Source of the DNA: Paenibacillus sp. G2S3
Lineage (GTDB): Bacteria > Bacillota > Bacilli > Paenibacillales > Paenibacillaceae
Direction: 5' to 3'
DNA: 64,000 bases
Assembly (NCBI RefSeq): GCF_030123105.1
Contig: NZ_CP126095.1
Coordinates: 3,906,001-3,970,000 of the forward strand
A model generated the notes under the pieces. The model did no database searches. It was not told where the DNA came from and saw nothing but the letters and a program-made list of their open reading frames with translations. Below, in pieces: positions 4,751 to 56,323 of this stretch. How positions within the stretch are numbered: the stretch's first letter is position 1; each line of letters starts with the position of its first letter. The translations under genes and the position numbers were made by a program.

Positions 4751-5020
4751 CGGAGGCCCCTTTTCTATGATGAAGTAAAGCTGCAGCAAACGCTTGAGGC
4801 ATCGTGCAACACTTGGATTAAATCGGATAATGAAAGAAAGATAGATAGATGACGATATGTAATGGAATACGATTAATAATCTAGATCAACTGAGTATGAA
4901 AGATAACGATAAGATAATTCTATAAAATTTTCTATTTTCCTTCATGGTTCGACAAATCAATGAAATAGCGATTAGCGTTTTCCGGAAATTGCATTCCATG
5001 GCTCGTTACAAGTAGATCGT
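4751..5020. other. Intergenic stretch without recognisable feature
   Basis: AT-rich DNA between the kinase gene and the first repeat array. I see no convincing gene, promoter pair or hairpin here. Confidence 0.5.
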
Positions 5021-5801
5021 CAGACTCAGATGATCTTATTTTCTGAAATATTTGGATTTCATCTTGTGATCGGACTCAGATGCAGCTGTACGCACTAAAA
5101 CACTCCACTAATGCGCTGTTTTGGATCAATAAGAGCTATGCTGTCCGAAACCTCAGCAAATCGAGGGAAAACGGGCAAATAGCTGCATTTACTGTCCGTA
5201 AACAAACTACCGCCTATGGGTCCGGACTGTAAAGCCCTTATTTGCATAAATACTGGGTTTTCGCCTCATTATCGGACTCAGATGCAGCTAATGGCTCTAA
5301 AACACCGTAATGATGCGCAGTTTTTGATCAATAAGAGCTATGCTGTACGAAACTCGGGGAAAACGAGCGAAAAAGCCACAATAGCTGCATTACGGTCCGC
5401 AAACAATCTACCGCCTATGGGCCCGGACCGTAATGCCCTTATTTGCATAAATACTGGGTTTTCGCCTCATTATCGGACTCAGATGCAGCTATTGGCTCTA
5501 AAACACCGTAATGATGCGCTGTTTTTGATCAATAAGAGCTATACGTTCCGAAACTCAGGGAAAACGAGCGAAATAGCCACAATAGCTGCATTACGGTCCG
5601 TAAACAAACTATCGCCTATGGGTCCGGACTGTAAAGCCCTTATTTGCATAAATACTGGGTTTTCGCCTCATTATCGGACTCAGATGCAGCTATTTGCCCT
5701 AAAACACACTATTAAGGCACGGTTTTCGATCAATAAGAACTATACGGTCCCAAACTCGGGGAAAACGAGCGAAAAAGCCACAATAGCTGCATTACGGTCC
5801 G
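5021..5801 (+). repeat. Array 1: four ~177-bp nested-palindrome elements, period ~201 bp
   Basis: Four units occupy 5021-5198, 5224-5399, 5424-5600 and 5625-5801 (176-178 bp each), with spacers of 24-25 bp. Each unit carries four related half-sites in the order d+, a+, b-, c-. Site d is like CGGACCGTAATGCCCTTATT, site a is CGGACTCAGATGCAGCTATT, site b is like AATAAGAGCTATGCTGTCCG, and site c is AATAGCTGCATTACGGTCCG. Outer pair d/c and inner pair a/b are inverted repeats, so each unit is a nested palindrome. Site a begins at 5071, 5274, 5474 and 5675. Unit 1 has a worn d site. Across the spacer, c of one unit and d of the next also form an inverted repeat, with 13 perfect pairs at 5387-5399/5424-5436. 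Apparent reading frames through the array are by-products of the repeat. Confidence 0.92.
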
Positions 5802-5857
5802 TTACTTTCGAGACTTGATAGAAAAGTCTTTTTTCACCCTTCAAGTTAATTCTTTCA

Positions 5858-5886
5858 TTGTTGAATTTTGGGAAATTCGCTATAAT
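5858..5886 (+). promoter_or_regulatory. Sigma-A-type promoter ahead of the nuclease-like gene
   Basis: TTGTTG at 5858-5863 and a perfect TATAAT at 5881-5886 are separated by exactly 17 bases. Transcription would begin near 5893, giving a leader of about 145 bases before the ATG at 6038. Confidence 0.75.
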
Positions 5887-5910
5887 AACTTCAATAGGTC
5901 GTGAAGAACA

Positions 5911-5976
5911 CGCCGCTTGCATACAATTTCCTGAATTTTTATTTCAGCGAAGTTTATGCAGGCGGTTTTTCTTTTT
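5911..5976 (+). terminator. Long hairpin plus T-run in the leader of the nuclease-like gene (attenuator or small-RNA terminator)
   Basis: Left arm 5913-5935 pairs with right arm 5942-5965. The core is CCGC/GCGG next to TGCATA/TATGCA, with an outer extension through CTGAA/TTCAG. It is followed by TTTTTCTTTTT. It lies between the promoter at 5858-5886 and the start at 6038, so it is either an attenuator controlling read-through or the end of a short RNA of about 80 bases. Confidence 0.7.
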
Positions 5977-6037
5977 AGAAGCTGAATAATTAGGGTTATA
6001 AATCTATCTAATTTTTTACTTTAGGAGGGTAAATATT

Positions 6038-6685
6038 ATGTCACGATTCGAACAACTGTTAGAGGAATGGTTACAGACAAATTTGGAATTGGAGAGTAAT
6101 CCCCGTAGACAGGAGCTGCTCAGTAAAGGTCTCGGACATGGAACTGTAGAATTCCTGCGCGCAGTTTGGTTTCCCGCTGTAGGAAATTTCAATCATTTGT
6201 TTCCCGAATGGGAAGTTCGTGATTTCAATAATGGCTATCGTTATTTGGATCTTGCTTATATGCCGGGTGGAGCTAAAGGAGGAATAGAGATTCAAGGCTA
6301 TGGGCCACATGCTAGAGACCTAGATATACGGAGGTTCAAAGATTTATGTAGACGACATTCTTTATTAACTCTAGATGGTTGGACTTTTCTGTCGATAGCC
6401 TACCCCTCCATTACAGACGAGCCTAATCAATGCCAACAATTATTACTCGCATTCATCGGGAAATTTATTGCGTCTGATGTACCCTCGGAATTAACATGGT
6501 TAGAAGCTGAAACCCTACGTTTCTCCAGACGTCTACTGAGACCTTTCACACCTCTTGAGCTCACCAATCATCTTAGAATTACTAATCGGCATGCCAGACG
6601 TATTTTGCACGAATTAGTTGAGCAGCAATTACTGGATATTGTTAGTGGTCAACAGCGTATTCGCACCTATCAAATTAGAGTTTGA
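6038..6685 (+). CDS. Putative DUF559/Vsr-like nuclease-fold protein with C-terminal winged helix, between repeat arrays
   Basis: The start ATG follows AGGAGGG with 8-base spacing. The 215-residue soluble protein has a helical N-terminus, then a middle part that looks like a Vsr/DUF559-type PD-(D/E)XK fold. D71 in YLDLAY, E84 in IEIQGYGPH, H91, D96 and R99 are spaced like the D...ExDG..H......D..R pattern of that family, with an aromatic/Gly-Trp strand (DGWTFL) after it. The usual third acidic or Lys position is Gln86, so activity is uncertain. Residues ~165-215 resemble a winged helix (PFTPLELTNHL, RHARRILHELVEQ). The gene stands alone, with four palindromic elements upstream and four downstream in the same direction. 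That makes a role in binding or processing those repeats worth testing. It could equally be a transcription regulator that lost catalysis. Confidence 0.6.
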   Translation: MSRFEQLLEEWLQTNLELESNPRRQELLSKGLGHGTVEFLRAVWFPAVGNFNHLFPEWEVRDFNNGYRYLDLAYMPGGAKGGIEIQGYGPHARDLDIRRFKDLCRRHSLLTLDGWTFLSIAYPSITDEPNQCQQLLLAFIGKFIASDVPSELTWLEAETLRFSRRLLRPFTPLELTNHLRITNRHARRILHELVEQQLLDIVSGQQRIRTYQIRV

Positions 6686-6798
6686 GGCATCGAGACTTAC
6701 ATAATAATGATGTTTGATTGTAATTTGCTGAGACACCTGATCAGAATTCAGCAACCAATGCGACAATGACCTAATCAAAACAAATTCACCTTACTGTT

Positions 6799-7577
6799 CG
6801 GACCTAATAGCTCTTATTCGCTGAATTCTTTAAATTCGGCCGCATGATCGGACTCAGATGCAGCTATTCACTCTAAAATACCCTAATAATGCGCAGTTTT
6901 CGATCAATAAGAGCTACGCTGTCCGAAAACTCAGCAAATCGAGGGAAAACGGGCAAATAGCTGCATTACGGTCCGTAAAACAAACTACTGCTATCAATTC
7001 AGACCGCATTACTCTTATTTGTGCAAATATCAGCTTTTCGTCGTATGAACGGACTCAGTTGCAGCTATTCACTTTAAAACACCCTTATAATGCGCTGCTG
7101 TTGATCAATAAGAGCTACGCTGTCCGAAAACTCAGCAAATCGAGGAAAAGCAGGCAAATAGCTGTACTACGGTCCGTAAAACAAACTTCTTCAATGGGTT
7201 CGGACCGTATTACTCTTATTTGTGCAAAAATTAGCTTTTCGTCGTATGAACGGACTCAGTTGCAGCTATTTACTCCAGAACACCCCAATATTGCGCTGTT
7301 TTTGATCAATAAGAGCTATGCTGTCCGAAAACTCAGCAAATCGAGGGAAAACGGGCAAATAGCTGCATTACGGTCCGTAAAAAAACTACTGCTATCAATT
7401 CGGACCGTATTACTCTTATTTGTGCAAAAATTAGCTTTTCGTCGTATGAACGGACTCAGTTGCAGCTATTTACTCCAGAACACCCCAATATTGCGCTGTT
7501 TTTGATCAATAAGAGCTATGCTGTCCGAAAGTCGTTGAAAACGAGCGAAATAGCCACAATAGCTGCATTACGGTCCG
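6799..7577 (+). repeat. Array 2: four more ~177-bp nested-palindrome elements, period ~201 bp
   Basis: Units lie at 6799-6975, 7000-7176, 7201-7377 and 7401-7577, each exactly 177 bp with 23-24 bp spacers. Orientation and d+, a+, b-, c- order are the same as in array 1. Site a begins at 6849, 7050, 7251 and 7451. The units share private differences from array 1: site a reads CGGACTCAGTTGCAGCTATT in three units, and the stretch between d and a is different. So each array appears homogenised within itself. The first unit here keeps the array-1 form of site a. Confidence 0.92.
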
Positions 7578-7580
7578 GAA

Positions 7581-7616
7581 CCGTTAAATGCCAAGTGTCA
7601 GATAGTTATTTAACGG
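7581..7616. repeat. Inverted repeat at the end of array 2
   Basis: CCGTTAAAT at 7581-7589 is matched by ATTTAACGG at 7608-7616, with outer GTCC/GGAC pairing around it. It joins array 2 to the heptamer array. There is no T-run, so it is not a standard terminator. Confidence 0.6.
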
Positions 7617-7640
7617 ACCTGGACCAAATTGGGGGTTAGC

Positions 7641-8039
7641 GTTCAGCGTTCAGCGTTCAGCGTTCAGCGTTCAGCGTTCAGCGTTCAGCGTTCAGCGTTC
7701 AGCGTTCAGCGTTCAGCGTTCGGCGTTCAGCGTTCAGCGTTCAGTGTTCGGCGTTCGGCGTTCGGATTTCAGCATTCAGCGTTCAGCGTTCGGCGTTCAG
7801 CGTTCAGCGTTCGGCGTTCGGCATTCAGCGTTCAGCGTTCGGCGTTCAGCGTTCGGCGTTCGGCGTTCGGCGTTCGGCGTTCGGCGTTCGGCGTTCGGCG
7901 TTCGGCGTTCGGCGTTCGGCGTTCGGCGTTCGGCGTTCGGCGTTCGGCGTTCGGCGTTCGGCGTTCGGCGTTCGGCGTTCGCAGTTCGCAGTTCGCAGTT
8001 CGCAGTTCGCAGTTCGCAGTTCGCAGTTCGCAGTTCTCG
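7641..8039. repeat. Heptanucleotide tandem array (GTTCAGC / GTTCGGC / GTTCGCA), about 56 copies
   Basis: A 7-base unit repeats without breaks. The left part is mainly GTTCAGC, then a mixed zone of GTTCAGC and GTTCGGC, then an almost pure GTTCGGC block to about 7976. A GTTCGCA block runs from 7977 to about 8032. The unit length is not a multiple of three and it contains no stop codon, so several frames read as open with a 7-residue period; these are not genes. The ordered blocks of variants suggest stepwise expansion by slippage. Confidence 0.95.
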
Positions 8040-8257
8040 GGTCGAAGGTTCATTCCTATACCGAGATTCGTCATATATCGCAAATAATTCTTGTTAAATC
8101 TACAGCGATCAGTGGATGGAGTTATACATTTAAGAACGCGCCTTTCGTAGGCTTTTGTCCATCATGGAATGTTAATATTATTCGCAATGAAAGTGTATCG
8201 CCTCTACACTGAGCAATTAAAGCTCAACTCTTACTACTCTTAAGACACCCCCATAAT
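8040..8257. other. Intergenic stretch after the heptamer array
   Basis: I find no gene, strong promoter or repeat between the heptamer array and the terminator hairpin. Confidence 0.5.
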
Positions 8258-8316
8258 AAAAAGACCATCCCTTCGGTCATCATCACTTACGAGATGACTT
8301 TTGGGATGGTCTTTTT
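8258..8316 (-). terminator. Terminator of the beta-helix protein gene
   Basis: AAAAAGACCATCCC and GGGATGGTCTTTTT form a strong stem with A/T runs on both sides, so it could stop transcription in either direction. It lies just past the stop of the minus-strand gene. Confidence 0.85.
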
Positions 8317-8347
8317 CCGAACACTAAGCGGAGAAATTCGCCGCTAT

Positions 8348-11300
8348 CTAGTTATAGAAATTCACTTCACGCACAGACCACCAGCTTGAAGCTGTTCCCG
8401 TCTGCACCACTTTGATGTACCTCGCGTTCTGAGGCGCAAATGTCGCTGTCACAACTGGACCAGTGCCGTTACCGCTTGCCACGGCGTTGCCCCAATTCGT
8501 TCCGTCATTTGAAACGTATACCTCATAGCCACGGGCATAATCCAGATCGCTACCTGTAGAATCCATCACGATCTGACTAATACTCTTCACTGCCTGCATG
8601 TCTACGGTGAACGATTGCCCTGGTACCATCGCCGCCCCGGTACTCCAGCGTGTAGTCATGCTGCCATCCAGTAAGTTGGCTGGCACGTCTCCGCTAGTCG
8701 GCGAAGAACTCGCCGTCCAGCCTGATCGATCCAGTGCACCCCCTGTTCCTCCACCTCCTGCCTGAGTTGTAGCGGTAGCCGTGTTGCTCGCCGTTGACAC
8801 ATTTCCGGCTGCATCTTTCGCTTTCACTGTGTAGCTGTAAGCAGTTGCTGGTGTCAAGCCAGTATCACTGAAAGATGTCGTTGCCGTGTTCCCCACCTGA
8901 CTGCCTCCGCGATAAATCTCGTAGCCGGTGACGCCTACGTTGTCGGTCGAAGCCGTCCAGCTGAGGTTGATACCGTTGCTTGAAACTACTGTCGCTGTCA
9001 AATTCGCTGGAGCACTCGGCGCTTGGTTATCGCCAGTTCCAGTGCTACCGAATACATTAAACTCCCTAATAGACCACCAGCTTGAAGCTGTACCTGTCTG
9101 CACCACTTTGATGTATCTCGCGTTCTGAGGCGCAAATGTCGCTGTTACGACTGGACCAGTGCCGTTACCGCTTGCCACGGCGTTGCCCCAATTCGTTCCG
9201 TCATTTGAAACGTATACCTCATAGCTACGCGCATAATCCAGATCGCTACCTGTAGAATCCATCACGATCTTGTTAATGCTTTTCACTGCTTTCATGTCCA
9301 CGGTGAATGACTGCCCCGGTACCATCGCTGCTCCAGTACTCCAGCGTGTAGCCATGCTGCCATCCAGTAGATTGGCTGGCACGTCTCCGCTAGTCGGCGA
9401 AGAAGTCGCCGTCCAGCCTGAACGATCCAGTGCAACCCCTGTGCCTCCACCTCCTGCTTGAGTTGTAGCTGTAGCCGTGTTGCTCGCCGCTGACACATTT
9501 CCGGCTGCATCCTTTGCTTTCACTGTATAGCTGTAAGCAGTCGCAGCCGTCAATCCAGTGTCGCTGAAAGATGTTGTTGCCGTGTTTCCCACCAGACTTC
9601 CCCCGCGATAAATCTCGTAGCCGGTGACGCCTACGTTGTCGGTTGAAGCAGTCCAGCTGAGGTTGATGCCGCTGCTTGAAACTACTGTCGCTGTCAAATT
9701 CGCTGGAATACTCGGTGCTTGAGTATCGACAGTGCCATTCCCTGAATATTCAGAAAGGGTCTGCCTCATCGCTTCCGCAGGGGAATTAGCGTATACTTTA
9801 CCCCCGATATTATTGATGATATGCGTAATTTCACTGCCCGCCGTACCTGATAGCCATATTGATGTGGCATGGTGGATCTTCACACCTGGTACGTTAGGAA
9901 CCTCTATCGCACTTTCGAGCTTAACTGGTGCGTCTCTGAAGAATGAATACACACCAAGCCCCCATGCTTCATGACTAGTTACACTGTCCGCCACTTTATA
10001 GGAGGCATATCCATTTACCGTGCCGTTTTTGCTCATCCAGCTCGATTGATTCGGAACATCATAAGGAATTTCAGATTGATAGAAATACACTCGACCACCA
10101 TTACCATTCCATAAAGTCTGATATTCATTATGATGTTCGTTAAACAAACCATAGATCGTCACATTGTTACCATTTACAACAAGACCGTTCTTGGAGACAT
10201 TAGACGTCCAGCTTGCACCCGCCCCATGATCTGCGCGCCATATCCAGAGCTGATCTGCAATGACATCATTACTGTTGATCTTTAAACTGATATCGTTTTT
10301 CCCTGAGGAAGCCCCACCTGTTCTAAAGGTCAGATCGTGAAGTGATGTTGGATTGGCAGCATGATTCAACACGCTACCGCTGGCTCCAACTTCCAGCAGA
10401 GAAGGTGAATTTACTGGGCCTGCATCAAAAGTAAGACCTGCGATCTTCACTCCGTCCACATCACTGACTGACATGACTGCTTTACCATTGTCTGGAATCA
10501 ACGTAGGGATACCAACACCGAGCACGACGGTGTTAGCATTCGTTATCCGGATCGTATCACTTAAATGGTAGATTCCTGGTGTGAATAGAAGATGTTTGCC
10601 CTGGCTTAGAGCGGAATTAATATCCGCTGCGCTCGATGTATTCGGTTTAGCGATATAGAATTGATCAATAGAGATCGATTGACCCGGTGTTTGGCCGTTT
10701 GCCCAGCTGACGCCCTGCGTATTGTTTTGTAATGATGGAACAAATACTTGGTATTGACCTGCACCGTTAATATAAAGATATGGCTTCTCTCGTATAACAG
10801 GCGTTCTATCTACAACAGTGTAAGGCGGATCTGGAAATTGACCTGTTGGTGGATTAGTCACGCCTACAAATACCATGTTCCAAACACCATTCGACCAGCT
10901 TCCCCATTGGCTATTTCGTGAGAACCACTGCTGCTGTGAAGCGGGAACAACTGTACTGTCTACGATAGAATCGGCAAGAAATCCTCCGCTGGCCCATCCG
11001 GCATTCCAATTTGAGTCAAAATCAAAAAGATCTAGTTGACCTTTGATGTGTAATCTACGAAGAGGTGCCGCCTGAGAAACGGCGATTTGTGTGGTTCCAC
11101 TGGAAGGGGTGATCGAAAGGTTCTCTATGGTTCGCCAGAAATTTCGGGTGGCATTTCCGTTATCCCAATCGGCATTAATATTCAATCCTCCAGTGATGTT
11201 AACATCATTAGGATTTTGGCCGAGACCAGACACTTGAGTATAGAAACCTACGTTAAAGTTGACGTTGTATGCACCCGGCTTAAAAAGAAATGCTTTTCTA

Positions 11301-20000: not shown

Positions 20001-22214
20001 TATTGGCATGTGAAGGGTCTAGATATCACCCGCTCGGCTGGGAATACCAAAGGTTTTACAGTTGGTGGTAACTATAACATCGTTGAAAATAGCCGTTTCT
20101 ATGCGAATGGTGACACTGGCCTACAAATCAGCCGTACAGACGGAACGGCACAAGAAATAGCTGGATGGCCTTCTTACAACTTAATTCTGAACAGTACCTC
20201 CTTTGATAACCGCGATCCATCCGACAATAATGCCGATGGTTTCGCAGCGAAATTGACTGCTGGTGTTGGTAATATTTTTAGAGGCTGCCTAGCACATAAC
20301 AATATCGACGATGGCTGGGACTTGTATACAAAGGCAGGTTCAGGTGCCATCGGCCCTGTATTGATTGAGAATAGTGCAGCCTTTAACAACGGATTCTTAA
20401 CGGATGGAACCATAGGCGCTGGTGACAAGAACGGATTTAAGCTGGGTGGTGAAGGCATTCATGTCACTCATACCATCCGTAATTCTATCGCCTTCGGCAA
20501 TGGTGCATATGGTTTTACAAGCAACAGTAATCCAGGCGTCATTGCCATCAACAACATCGGCTTCAACAATGCGCGCGGAAATATGAGCTTTACAACTTAT
20601 GACCATATTACAGCAGACTTTAAGATCGACGGCTTCTTATCCTACCGGACGAACAACATCGGGAAAGACCAATATCCTTCCTCTTTGGCTACTGACAACA
20701 ACTTTATGTATGACGGGACAATCTCAGCCAATAAGTCTGGTAAGCAGCTCTCGGATTCAAACTTTGTCAGCTTAATACCGGTAGGTACTTATATGCGGGA
20801 TATGGAGGGTAATGTCATCTGGGGTGGCTTCCTGAAATTCATTCCTTTTGAGGAGCCGGAGCCAAGCCCAACACCAAGTTCCACTTCTTCACCTAGTCCT
20901 ACCACTTCGCCGACTCCGACTTCTTCACCTAGTCCTACAGCTTCACCAGTTCCGACCACTTCACCAAGCCCGACTTCTCCATCGAGTTCAAGCAGTTCCA
21001 GCTCATCTGTTGAGGATTCAGCCACTACTGTACTCTTGTTAGACGGTAGTGTAAGGGTTGACATTCCTATTTCTATGGATGCAGGAACAGCAAGCGCAAT
21101 ATTGAATGAATCCTCCTTTCAGAGGATAATTACTCTAGCAAAGCCTATTTCAACTGGTAATACAACGATCCGAATTCAGCTCTCGGTTGATCCATCCACA
21201 GACGTAAAGGAATATCAAATAACACTCCCTGCTACTGCATTTCATACAGGAACTTCTACCTTACAGCTTGAGATCAATTCATCGATAGCTACCATCTTGT
21301 TGCCAGATAGTATTTTCCCGGCGAATATGATAGACAAAGTGAAGACCGTTACTTTGCTACTGAGAACGGTCGATACCGTAGGGAAAATAAAAGCGAAGCT
21401 AGGAGAAAGTTCTCTCATCGAATATGCGCTTCGCTTGGATGGAGTAAAGATTCCTTTGAACACTCTACAATCAGCTATACAGATTGGGCTTCCTCATCCA
21501 GCAGCAGTACCTGCAACGAACAATGCTTTTATTGTCGTGTGGAACATCGACGCTAACGGAAACATTCAACCAATATTAAATGGAGATTATGATGCAGCAA
21601 GGAAGCAAGCTATTTTCTCGACAACAGCTTCTTTCGGCCAGTATGCAGCTGTCTACAATCACAAAACATTTAGGGATATATCTGATTCACATTGGGCGAA
21701 ATTCGTAGTAGAAGTGCTAACATCTAAAGGCGTCATTAACGGCGTAGCAGAAACAGAATTCAAACCTGATCAGGCGATTACTCGCGCAGATTTCGCACTT
21801 TTATTAGTTAGAATTTTGGGACTCACTGCAGTAGATGGGAACGGCTTCTCTGATGTGTCACCAAGTGATTACTTTTACGAGGGACTTATGACTGCTCAGA
21901 AATCAGGAATCATTAGGGGTCAAACCGATGGACGTTATCAACCGCATGAATCCATCTCTAGACAAGAGATGTTTGTTATGGTGGCTAGAGCACTGAAGGC
22001 AGCAGGAAAGTTGAGTTCTACTCCCTCATCATCTACACCACTAGTTGACTTTACTGACCATAACCAAATCGCTCAATATGCGGTAAATGATGTAGCGGTG
22101 CTGGTAGCAGCAGGTCTCATTAAAGGAGAGGCTCAGCAGCAGCTCATGCCAACTACCCATTCCACACGTGCCGAAGCAGCCATGCTGATTTACAGAATTC
22201 TTATACAAAAATAA
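17028..22214 (+). CDS. S-layer-anchored PL9 pectate lyase-like protein with Ig-like domains
   Basis: The TTG start follows AAGGAGAGG. The 1728-residue protein has a signal peptide (~1-27). A beta-sandwich module occurs twice (~30-240 and ~580-790, each with SFYYKE/TFYYTE and SFG[LM]M landmarks), separated by about four bacterial Ig-like repeats. A right-handed beta-helix spans ~905-1270. This helix carries the PL9 pattern: D1070, D1094, D1095 and D1098 (DDGWD) as calcium ligands and K1138 in GFKLGGEG as the base, matching D209/D233/D234/D237/K273 of Pel9A as I recall them. A Pro/Ser/Thr linker (~1275-1330), a beta-rich segment, and three SLH repeats (~1548-1728: DSHWAK, PSDYFYEG, IAQYAVND) follow. 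The enzyme would be held on the cell wall, cutting pectate-like polymers by beta-elimination. Exact substrate is open, since PL9 includes other lyases. Confidence 0.88.
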   Translation: MRKQQRLLAMLVTFLLLVSSFPPFMYAEEVTDPYDGMINIHSEWPWAFSAFGGNTSPVKNPEPVAQDQTSVTMTTYGGKISSSDEGLSFYYKEIPVDANFELTAKATVTSFNSNSSVSTPNQKSFGLMLRDTIGINGDSSTITSNYVAVGALDQVMKGFYKKITQAKLTPFSGFNVPTAGEAYDLSIKKSGNTYLLSIDDQTEIVTLDDTFTDSIFAGLYVARDATVTFSEVNIKVESKTVSSLVADASAMTKTSYLVGESLDLTGLVVKAIFSDHSEAVLSSSDYIVTGFDSSKVGENTVTINYNGASAKIIVQIVPLTMTSLTVKYDPAKTIYYPGDTFDPEGLVLAANYNDGFLTKELTNDLYSLSINGQPVSDKAPYLFGQSGSYEVTITSTEAPAVTTNFNVEVKAATLSSIEIQNEPKQTVYYIGDSIKLEGLVLYAHYSDGTQIRLMKNEYTVSSLDTLTPGDKKITVTHKGLTAFFQVEVKNKKLVGIEVTRYPATTFFLNEDFDSNHLIVSKVYDNSDREVLSSYTLDTSQFDNKKAGVYEISIIPTDSSLKPITYSVTVREKVVPVWHSIQFGQSTSTANNQTILKEDGSVELIALEGGGKVTEDHDGITFYYTELDASEDNFILSADIQVLAFAKTPYDGQESFGMMARDAIGTPGNSSVFASNIAAIGAYSGGTRSDLGTQLFVRSGVEKSDGTGSKGIQTIMLKKERPAPNNTAPVVPYRLTLSKTNSGFKGQLNNGQESIIFTPDILKVQDSKMYVGFYAARLATINISNIQLTVTSAATDSPKVEPPSAPDTPSISILSLNKTSDPAYPMIVRPNVNGTVTLKQGSVIIAQDIEVEANKLLTIPATLANLGDTSFSITFLPDDTQYLTSYDKIVLNFTVTMNSYREDEDIYVSPTGTSAGDGTIDLPLDIDTAIDFVKAGQHIIVLDGRYVRKSPLQIKKYNDGKATAKKYLEAAPGARPVIDFDKKTEGVLLSGNYWHVKGLDITRSAGNTKGFTVGGNYNIVENSRFYANGDTGLQISRTDGTAQEIAGWPSYNLILNSTSFDNRDPSDNNADGFAAKLTAGVGNIFRGCLAHNNIDDGWDLYTKAGSGAIGPVLIENSAAFNNGFLTDGTIGAGDKNGFKLGGEGIHVTHTIRNSIAFGNGAYGFTSNSNPGVIAINNIGFNNARGNMSFTTYDHITADFKIDGFLSYRTNNIGKDQYPSSLATDNNFMYDGTISANKSGKQLSDSNFVSLIPVGTYMRDMEGNVIWGGFLKFIPFEEPEPSPTPSSTSSPSPTTSPTPTSSPSPTASPVPTTSPSPTSPSSSSSSSSSVEDSATTVLLLDGSVRVDIPISMDAGTASAILNESSFQRIITLAKPISTGNTTIRIQLSVDPSTDVKEYQITLPATAFHTGTSTLQLEINSSIATILLPDSIFPANMIDKVKTVTLLLRTVDTVGKIKAKLGESSLIEYALRLDGVKIPLNTLQSAIQIGLPHPAAVPATNNAFIVVWNIDANGNIQPILNGDYDAARKQAIFSTTASFGQYAAVYNHKTFRDISDSHWAKFVVEVLTSKGVINGVAETEFKPDQAITRADFALLLVRILGLTAVDGNGFSDVSPSDYFYEGLMTAQKSGIIRGQTDGRYQPHESISRQEMFVMVARALKAAGKLSSTPSSSTPLVDFTDHNQIAQYAVNDVAVLVAAGLIKGEAQQQLMPTTHSTRAEAAMLIYRILIQK

Positions 22215-56145: not shown

Positions 56146-56323
56146 CGGACTTAGGAGCCCTTATTTTAAGAGTTCAGGGCATTTTGCTAGATTATAGGAC
56201 TCAGATGCAGCTATTCACTAAAAATAACTACCAAAACGTTTGATTTTATGGAAATAAGATCCATGCGGTCCGAAACTGTCGCGAAATTGAGCAAAAATTA
56301 AAAAATAGCTGCAATACGGTCCA
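56146..56323 (+). repeat. Isolated ninth copy of the ~177-bp nested-palindrome element
   Basis: A single 178-bp copy with the same d+, a+, b-, c- order lies in the 446-bp gap between the oxidoreductase and GNAT genes. Its sites are d from 56146 (CGGACTTAGGAGCCCTTATT), a at 56196-56215, b at 56253-56272 and c at 56304-56323. It differs from the array copies, so it is old, but its ends match theirs and therefore define the mobile or spreading unit. No target-site duplication is obvious. Confidence 0.85.

Follow-up and report, generated by a model that had tools for sequence, protein, structure and literature searches.

The 64,000-nucleotide stretch of the Paenibacillus sp. G2S3 genome analysed here (contig NZ_CP126095.1, positions 3,906,001 to 3,970,000; hereafter the window) raises the question of whether a lone gene for a predicted nuclease-like protein and the two repeat arrays flanking it belong to one system. 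Proteins of this family in Paenibacillus and related bacteria are mostly accompanied by their own evenly spaced repeats. In the window, the left array (5021-5801) and the right array (6799-7577) comprised four units each, all in one direction and with a period of 200-202 bp. The site scan resolved the 177-bp unit into four 20-nt sites with start spacings of 50, 57, and 50 bp, two on the minus strand followed by two on the plus strand, and the start of the last site lay 43-44 bp before that of the first site in the next unit. Sites had the form AATA-N12-TCCG, or close to that, with a clade-specific middle. The gene and the elements are as follows; elements 2 to 8 come from the site scan, element 1 from the scan and reading by eye, and element 9 from BLAST, motif, and site scans.

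6038-6685, plus strand: gene for a 215-aa protein with a predicted Vsr/EDxHD-type (PD-(D/E)XK-like) nuclease domain (about residues 33-145)
About residues 150-214 of that protein: predicted C-terminal winged helix
5021-5198: element 1, sites at 5021 (-), 5071 (-), 5128 (+), and 5178 (+)
5223-5399: element 2, sites at 5223 (-), 5273 (-), 5330 (+), and 5380 (+)
5424-5600: element 3, sites at 5424 (-), 5474 (-), 5531 (+), and 5581 (+)
5625-5801: element 4, sites at 5625 (-), 5675 (-), 5732 (+), and 5782 (+)
6799-6975: element 5, sites at 6799 (-), 6849 (-), 6906 (+), and 6956 (+)
7000-7176: element 6, sites at 7000 (-), 7050 (-), 7107 (+), and 7157 (+)
7201-7377: element 7, sites at 7201 (-), 7251 (-), 7308 (+), and 7358 (+)
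7401-7577: element 8, sites at 7401 (-), 7451 (-), 7508 (+), and 7558 (+)
56146-56323: element 9, a lone dispersed copy with the layout of elements 1 to 8, sites at 56146 (-), 56196 (-), 56253 (+), and 56304 (+)

The last site of element 1 (5178-5198, read by eye) carries one extra base and was absent from the scan. With up to three mismatches allowed, one end motif matched 10 times in the window against 0.20 expected from shuffles (the match at 2795 being unrelated), and the other matched nine times against 0.00 expected. A BLAST search with one unit as query found 29 places across the 6.70-Mb genome, nine of them inside the window; the longer places outside it were 68-82% identical, with further clusters near 3.872 and 5.109 Mb. 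The sequence-only reading of this locus, which had placed four same-direction elements of about 177 bp at a period of about 201 bp on each side of the gene, proved exact, its coordinates being the element edges. The symmetry of four plus four did not extend to a general feature and is particular to the window, since unit numbers vary among relatives, most of which carry elements on the 3' side alone.

The protein is a member of a multi-paralog Bacillales family, for which a Vsr/EDxHD-type nuclease domain together with a winged helix is predicted. Homologues were encoded by 46 of the 60 genomes searched (the window's own counted), with as many as 11 matches in a single genome, and many of those listed are currently annotated as 'transcriptional regulator' or as 'hypothetical protein'. 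Residues W44, D62, D71, E84, and H91 were invariant in the 67 aligned members, and the nuclease-core residues D62, D71, E84, and H91 remained so in 73 of 73 proteins with identities down to about 27%. Accepting E values up to 0.1, PF04480 (DUF559) matched 30 of the 67 members (best 4.7e-6) and PF18741 (REase_MTES_1575) matched 23 (best 3.8e-6); the window protein itself matched neither, and its Pfam scan up to E 1 gave just three weak C-terminal matches. Queried with the single protein or its DNA, NCBIfam, PDB-sequence, PHROGs, PADLOC, and Rfam returned no convincing family. The earlier description of a Vsr-fold, nuclease-like protein with a winged helix holds, as a predicted fold with Pfam profile matches among members.

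Repeats beside the genes of relatives were analysed at 58 homologue loci (20 kb each, from 15 genomes) and the window, giving 59 loci. Self-repeats covered 60 nt or more of the 1.2-kb flanks at 37 of the 59 loci, compared with 108 of 1475 control windows taken from these loci. When the spacing of direct 18-mer pairs lying no more than 800 bp from the gene was recorded without reference to any motif, 51 bp stood out (36 of 59 loci vs. 58 of 887 controls), although it was also the commonest of the listed spacings among the controls of this test, and a spacing of 50 or 51 bp was present at 44 of the 59 loci. An independent named set covered 80 of 323 relatives (Paenibacillus, Cohnella, Virgibacillus, Oceanobacillus, Halalkalibacter, Aquibacillus, Evansella, and others); 12 loci were dropped (7 genes already seen and 5 too short), and 55 of the remaining 68 had repeats spaced by 50 or 51 bp, against 2 of 66 control flanks (2 of the 68 being without control). 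Homologues lacking repeats, whose prevalence would have counted against the sequence-only reading, were thus not the rule. In relatives down to about 27% identity the site sequences were others and the spacing stayed at 50/51 bp. A common layout in the named set had two sites on each strand, spaced by about 50-57-50 and located between a few and a few hundred nt beyond the stop codon; in other clades a run of sites, often palindromic, recurred every 51 bp and started soon after the gene. Arrays lay mostly 3' of the gene and varied in unit number, and a test linking upstream with downstream flanks was positive at only 7 of the 59 loci and at 10 of 1475 controls. With stricter criteria, a scan away from the genes found 51-bp 18-mer pairs 31 times, about 10 of them from one array, vs. 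30 times for 54 bp; by eye, most 50/51 pairs away from genes resembled resident site types. A resemblance to clustered regularly interspaced short palindromic repeats (CRISPR) was considered and dropped, the inter-site parts being repeats too and not unique spacers in most of the arrays shown (those of locus L103 are more variable).

Some loci depart from this picture. Directly after the family gene of L102 lies a 40-bp tandem array (GGCCGTTAGCG...GGCTAACGGCGC), an exception to the 51-bp rule. In genome G039, pairs of another, GATCGCAGGAATTT-like type spaced by 51 bp occurred away from family genes, at 1202 and 17926 of L117 and at 2425 of L118. At about 5550-5960 of L078 (G022), some 4 kb from a family gene whose site is different, there is an orphan 51-bp array made up of palindromes of the AGAGGCA type, possibly left by a lost paralog or resulting from spread.

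Site sequences varied with the protein. The tree of 73 proteins and the per-locus sites agreed, in that site type tracked the protein clade and not the genome: paralogs of one genome had different sites, and orthologs across genomes had similar ones. The window gene's clade, clade A, has the AATA-N12-TCCG type, and other clades have AGAGGTA-TACCTCT, ACGGCA-TGCCGT, AGGGA-TCCCT, TTGTACAA-like, and TGGAAAAAG sites. Protein identity correlated with site similarity over 35 loci (r 0.74), a value reached by 0 of 2000 permutations, and shuffling site sets within genomes gave r of at most 0.56. Thirteen loci with simple satellites or doubtful sites were left out by hand (L058, which was not in the set anyway, L065, L069, L074, L077, L085, L089, L094, L099, L101, L102, L105, and L115), as were loci without a site call, the window included, and L093 and L103, whose genes contain stops. 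Shared descent of the flanks adds to this correlation, which therefore supports recognition of the sites by the protein without proving it.

Dispersed copies were counted in whole genomes as clade-A pairs (two sites 49-51 bp apart, gene-adjacent ones included), and these counts superseded a test made on fetched stretches. The 60 genomes held 1,109 such pairs, with 99 in the window's genome, 196 in G001, 94 in G017, and 81 in G045; the reversed pattern had 16 matches, 15 of them in G027, and the pattern with a spacing wider by 10 bp had two. With the status of the clade-A gene assigned by hand from the homologue search, the median number of pairs was 33 in genomes with an intact gene (21 genomes), 30 where it was broken (4), and 0 where it was absent (35). 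The repeats were thus not equally common in genomes lacking the gene, apart from the exceptions given below (G007, G028, G031, G029, and G053). Nine of the 60 genomes had matches to the AGAGGTA-type pattern (69, 53, 48, 31, 15, 8, 7, 1, and 1), and the other 51 had none; of the genomes represented in the tree, G028, G031, and G011 carry the matching gene clade. In G045, 13 of 15 complete elements measured 177 bp from one outer site edge to the other and two measured 178 bp; the 15 ended mostly in TAA-CGGA...TCCG-TTA, and were 64-94% identical to one another (median 86%; 79 of 105 pairs, those of equal length). Dispersal in gene-bearing genomes was thus seen for several site types. With matched repeats beside most homologues and an enrichment in gene-bearing genomes, the proposal of a linked system of repeats and gene was supported.

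Signs of movement came from genomes G034 and G028. A 249-bp insert holding a complete four-site element of another type was present in G034 and absent from G028, between flanks 97-99% identical. Over 206 kb aligned between both genomes, 6 of 26 insertions or deletions of 70-1500 bp contained 50/51 pairs, as compared with 42 of 1040 random aligned segments of matching length; in the same insertions or deletions, control spacings of 46/47 and 55/56 bp were found 0 and 1 times, respectively. Two of the six pair-bearing differences fell within a 20-kb family-gene locus (L087/L096). The presence/absence difference and the array-rich insertions and deletions hint at mobility.

The genes of the family also share a leader, which in the window consists of the following features.

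5900-5912, plus strand: leader hairpin CGTG-AAGAA-CACG in the 5' untranslated region, with a stem that covaries across the family
5911-5970, plus strand: intrinsic-terminator-like hairpin and T run, between leader hairpin and gene (boundaries by eye)

A small hairpin with loop AAGMA was found upstream of 64 of 75 genes examined (the match at L074, with loop AAGGA, is probably spurious), and it usually preceded a terminator-like hairpin and a T run. Its stem occurred in compensatory forms (GACG/CGTC, CGTG/CACG, GGCG/CGCC, and others). In 35 aligned leaders, 98.6% of the cells paired, compared with 17-56% in slid controls, and 31 cells had changed on both sides vs. 10.3 in shuffles. Exact matches to the commonest leader form in 12 chosen genomes stood, as judged by eye, just upstream of a listed family gene in 37 of 46 cases. 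Twenty further leader places were picked by eye as being without a listed gene, although one (L294) adjoins a listed one; 4 of the 20 held family-protein matches, one of them weak, and of the remainder, by eye, some were coding matches and some resembled leaders that had outlasted their gene. Rfam gave no match up to E 1 to the leader or the elements at 4800-8400 of the window. The leader looks like a family-specific attenuator and probably holds down expression of the gene. At L280 and L281 (G000:C1:6119444 and G001:C1:6242828) leader and terminator stood without a family gene and resembled paralog leaders of the L081 type; the open frame after them is, we presume, peptidase-like, and these leaders may be remnants of a lost gene.

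Among bacterial genes that live with a population of tiny dispersed repeats, the usual example is that of the REPIN-RAYT systems, formed by doublets of repetitive extragenic palindromic sequences (REP doublets forming hairpins, REPINs) and REP-associated tyrosine transposases (RAYTs). The system described here shares with them a gene with palindromic or inverted repeats of its own at its flanks, copies dispersed in the genome, and a matching of gene and repeat types; the relevant passages of PMC2817692 and PMC3116915 state that RAYT genes are always flanked by two inverted REPs and that REPIN excision was observed in sequencing reads. Flanking inverted repeats of a dispersed family were present in the window, and in relatives mostly on the 3' side only. 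It differs in the enzyme fold, an unrelated, predicted Vsr/EDxHD-like nuclease plus winged helix, in having four sites at 50-57-50 or 51-bp tandem arrays and no REP doublet, in lacking a GTAG tag in the listed window sites (AATA...TCCG or close variants), and in its Bacillales setting. PF01797 (Y1/HUH) had no match in the window's genome, G000, nor in G001, G012, G017, G018, G040, G042, G045, and G047, and mobilisation by a RAYT was dropped given the lack of a match in the former. The gene and its repeats are therefore not a RAYT system, there being no Y1 domain, and by analogy they would work like REPIN-RAYT with an unrelated enzyme, as the sequence-only reading had suggested in drawing the parallel. 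Like Vsr and the EDxHD enzyme I-Bth0305I, the family has the predicted catalytic-domain fold of this group, and it would share with I-Bth0305I a long, spaced DNA target as far as the relevant part of PMC3943268 describes it. It departs from EDxHD homing endonucleases in its free-standing intergenic gene with its own leader and promoter-like box (the latter by eye), in the many-site arrays that adjoin the gene, in a winged helix that replaces phage-type DNA-binding modules, and in the tens to about 200 spaced site pairs found in many genomes. The elements share short, dispersed, inverted organization with miniature inverted-repeat transposable elements (MITEs) and with CGTC-type REPs lacking a known transposase, as these appear in the relevant part of PMC3733652; unlike the CGTC-type REPs, the window sites carry no CGTC/GTAG tag and a candidate partner gene is present. 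Part of the family is linked by profile matches to DUF559/REase_MTES_1575, although the window protein is not. We know of no repeat partner for DUF559/REase_MTES_1575. Literature searches among openly licensed papers, judged from their listings, turned up no description of such repeats or of the family together with repeats, and silence there is weak evidence.

We lean, if only slightly, towards the protein and its cognate repeats being one linked genetic system, probably selfish or domesticated, in which the nuclease would cut and repair would spread the elements. A more specific version, on which we are more hesitant, is a class of bacterial repeat-spreading systems in which a Vsr/EDxHD-fold nuclease with a winged helix, and not a transposase, would keep and spread its own four-site (50-57-50) or 51-bp-phased elements, its cuts being repaired in a way that copies the elements; several mutually distinct paralogous pairs of protein and site would coexist within a genome, each with its own specificity and with a shared attenuator type. 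The winged helix would read the site of about 20 bp, proteins on two sites about five helical turns apart would pair up, two such protein pairs on the inverted arms would synapse, the Vsr/EDxHD-like nuclease would then nick or cut the element, and repair of the break would copy, expand, or relocate elements; binding, cleavage, and mobilisation by the protein are what we infer here. According to the relevant part of PMC3943268, I-Bth0305I forms dimers on a target nearly 60 bp long, and this lends plausibility to the idea of paired sites.

Several observations weigh against this reading. At the threshold applied, 15 of the 59 loci lacked a 50/51 pair; the window is one of these, because its paired neighbouring sites are too unlike one another. 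The association of clade-A gene and pairs (Mann-Whitney p 1.6e-7; within genus 4.1e-5) is not corrected for phylogeny. Genome G007 had 119 pair matches and no clade-A gene, the same being true of G028 (26) and G031 (7), whereas G029 and G053 carried the gene and had zero pair matches. The syntenic place in G007 lacked the whole array-gene-array module, both flanks being kept (91%) and about 2.5 kb of other genes replacing it. Genome G009 holds an AGAGGTA-type gene and gave no exact match to that site pattern, and within the fetched stretches alone only 8 of 29 motif sets recurred elsewhere in the genome they came from, beyond the locus itself. The difference between G034 and G028 is unpolarised, the third genome, G031, not aligning there, and may be a deletion in G028; by eye, no target-site duplication was evident at the G034 insertion. 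Neither was one found around the 15 G045 elements, where, at the best-scoring offsets shown, direct duplications of 3-9 nt appeared in no more than three.

A rival proposal takes the elements to be MITEs or REP-like repeats that a different transposase (DDE or Y1) mobilises, with the nuclease gene tolerating or exploiting adjacent insertions. Their inverted ends and 177-bp size match the usual description of MITEs, and Y1 transposases were present in 27 of the 60 genomes searched; we nevertheless regard this as improbable, as no target-site duplication was found, site type tracks the nuclease clade, the window's genome and eight other element-rich genomes had no Y1 match (DDE transposases were not surveyed), and tandem 51-bp arrays would be unlike MITE ends. 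The main rival is a regulator with decoy sites, which would repress itself or its neighbours through phased sites, the dispersed sites being decoys or organising the chromosome and the nuclease fold being inactive. The predicted winged helix, the annotation of many relatives as transcriptional regulators, the adjacency of arrays and gene in many relatives, and a 51-bp spacing of about five helical turns, which would suit cooperative binding, all agree with it. We consider it rather unlikely: it would be strange for an inactive enzyme to keep four core residues invariant in 73 of 73 proteins, most arrays are located 3' of the gene, and expression seems to be under its own attenuator. Finally, the repeats could be old and functionless, inherited by descent near a nuclease acting elsewhere, for instance in repair or defence. 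The flanks of orthologous loci are indeed shared by descent, and elements persist in some genomes that lack the gene (G007 and G028). Against it, the spacing is maintained between clades of about 30% identity that differ in site sequence, paralogs in one genome differ in sites while orthologs elsewhere are similar, and PADLOC gave only weak, partial matches for the two members scanned (E 0.017 and 0.036); we give this explanation little credence. Two further readings, TnsA-like and centromere-like (ParB-parS), were entertained as well.

Should the linked system of nuclease and repeats be real, it would constitute a second, non-homologous solution, the REPIN-RAYT type of lifestyle having evolved more than once. 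It would explain the presence of many intergenic repeats in Paenibacillus and related bacteria, would offer dozens of natural protein-site pairs with diverged nuclease DNA specificity, whose recognition code could be tested directly, and would allow function-guided names for a family now called 'transcriptional regulator' or 'hypothetical protein'.

Simple satellites unrelated to the elements were also frequent beside family genes. One of them lies just past the right array of the window.

7639-8036, no strand assigned: heptanucleotide satellite GTTCAGC/GTTCGGC/GTTCGCA, 398 bp

Such satellites occurred at 17 of the 59 loci vs. 35 of 708 control windows and, in the named set, in 15 of 71 inner flanks vs. 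2 of 71 outer flanks. In DNA without open frames of at least 150 codons they covered 3.9% near the gene and 0.57% elsewhere in these loci, being about seven times denser in the former. This enrichment fits local DNA breaks and repair, without being proof of them. Farther along the window, at 20872-20974, there is a short 18/36-bp tandem repeat that bears no relation to the nuclease and its elements.
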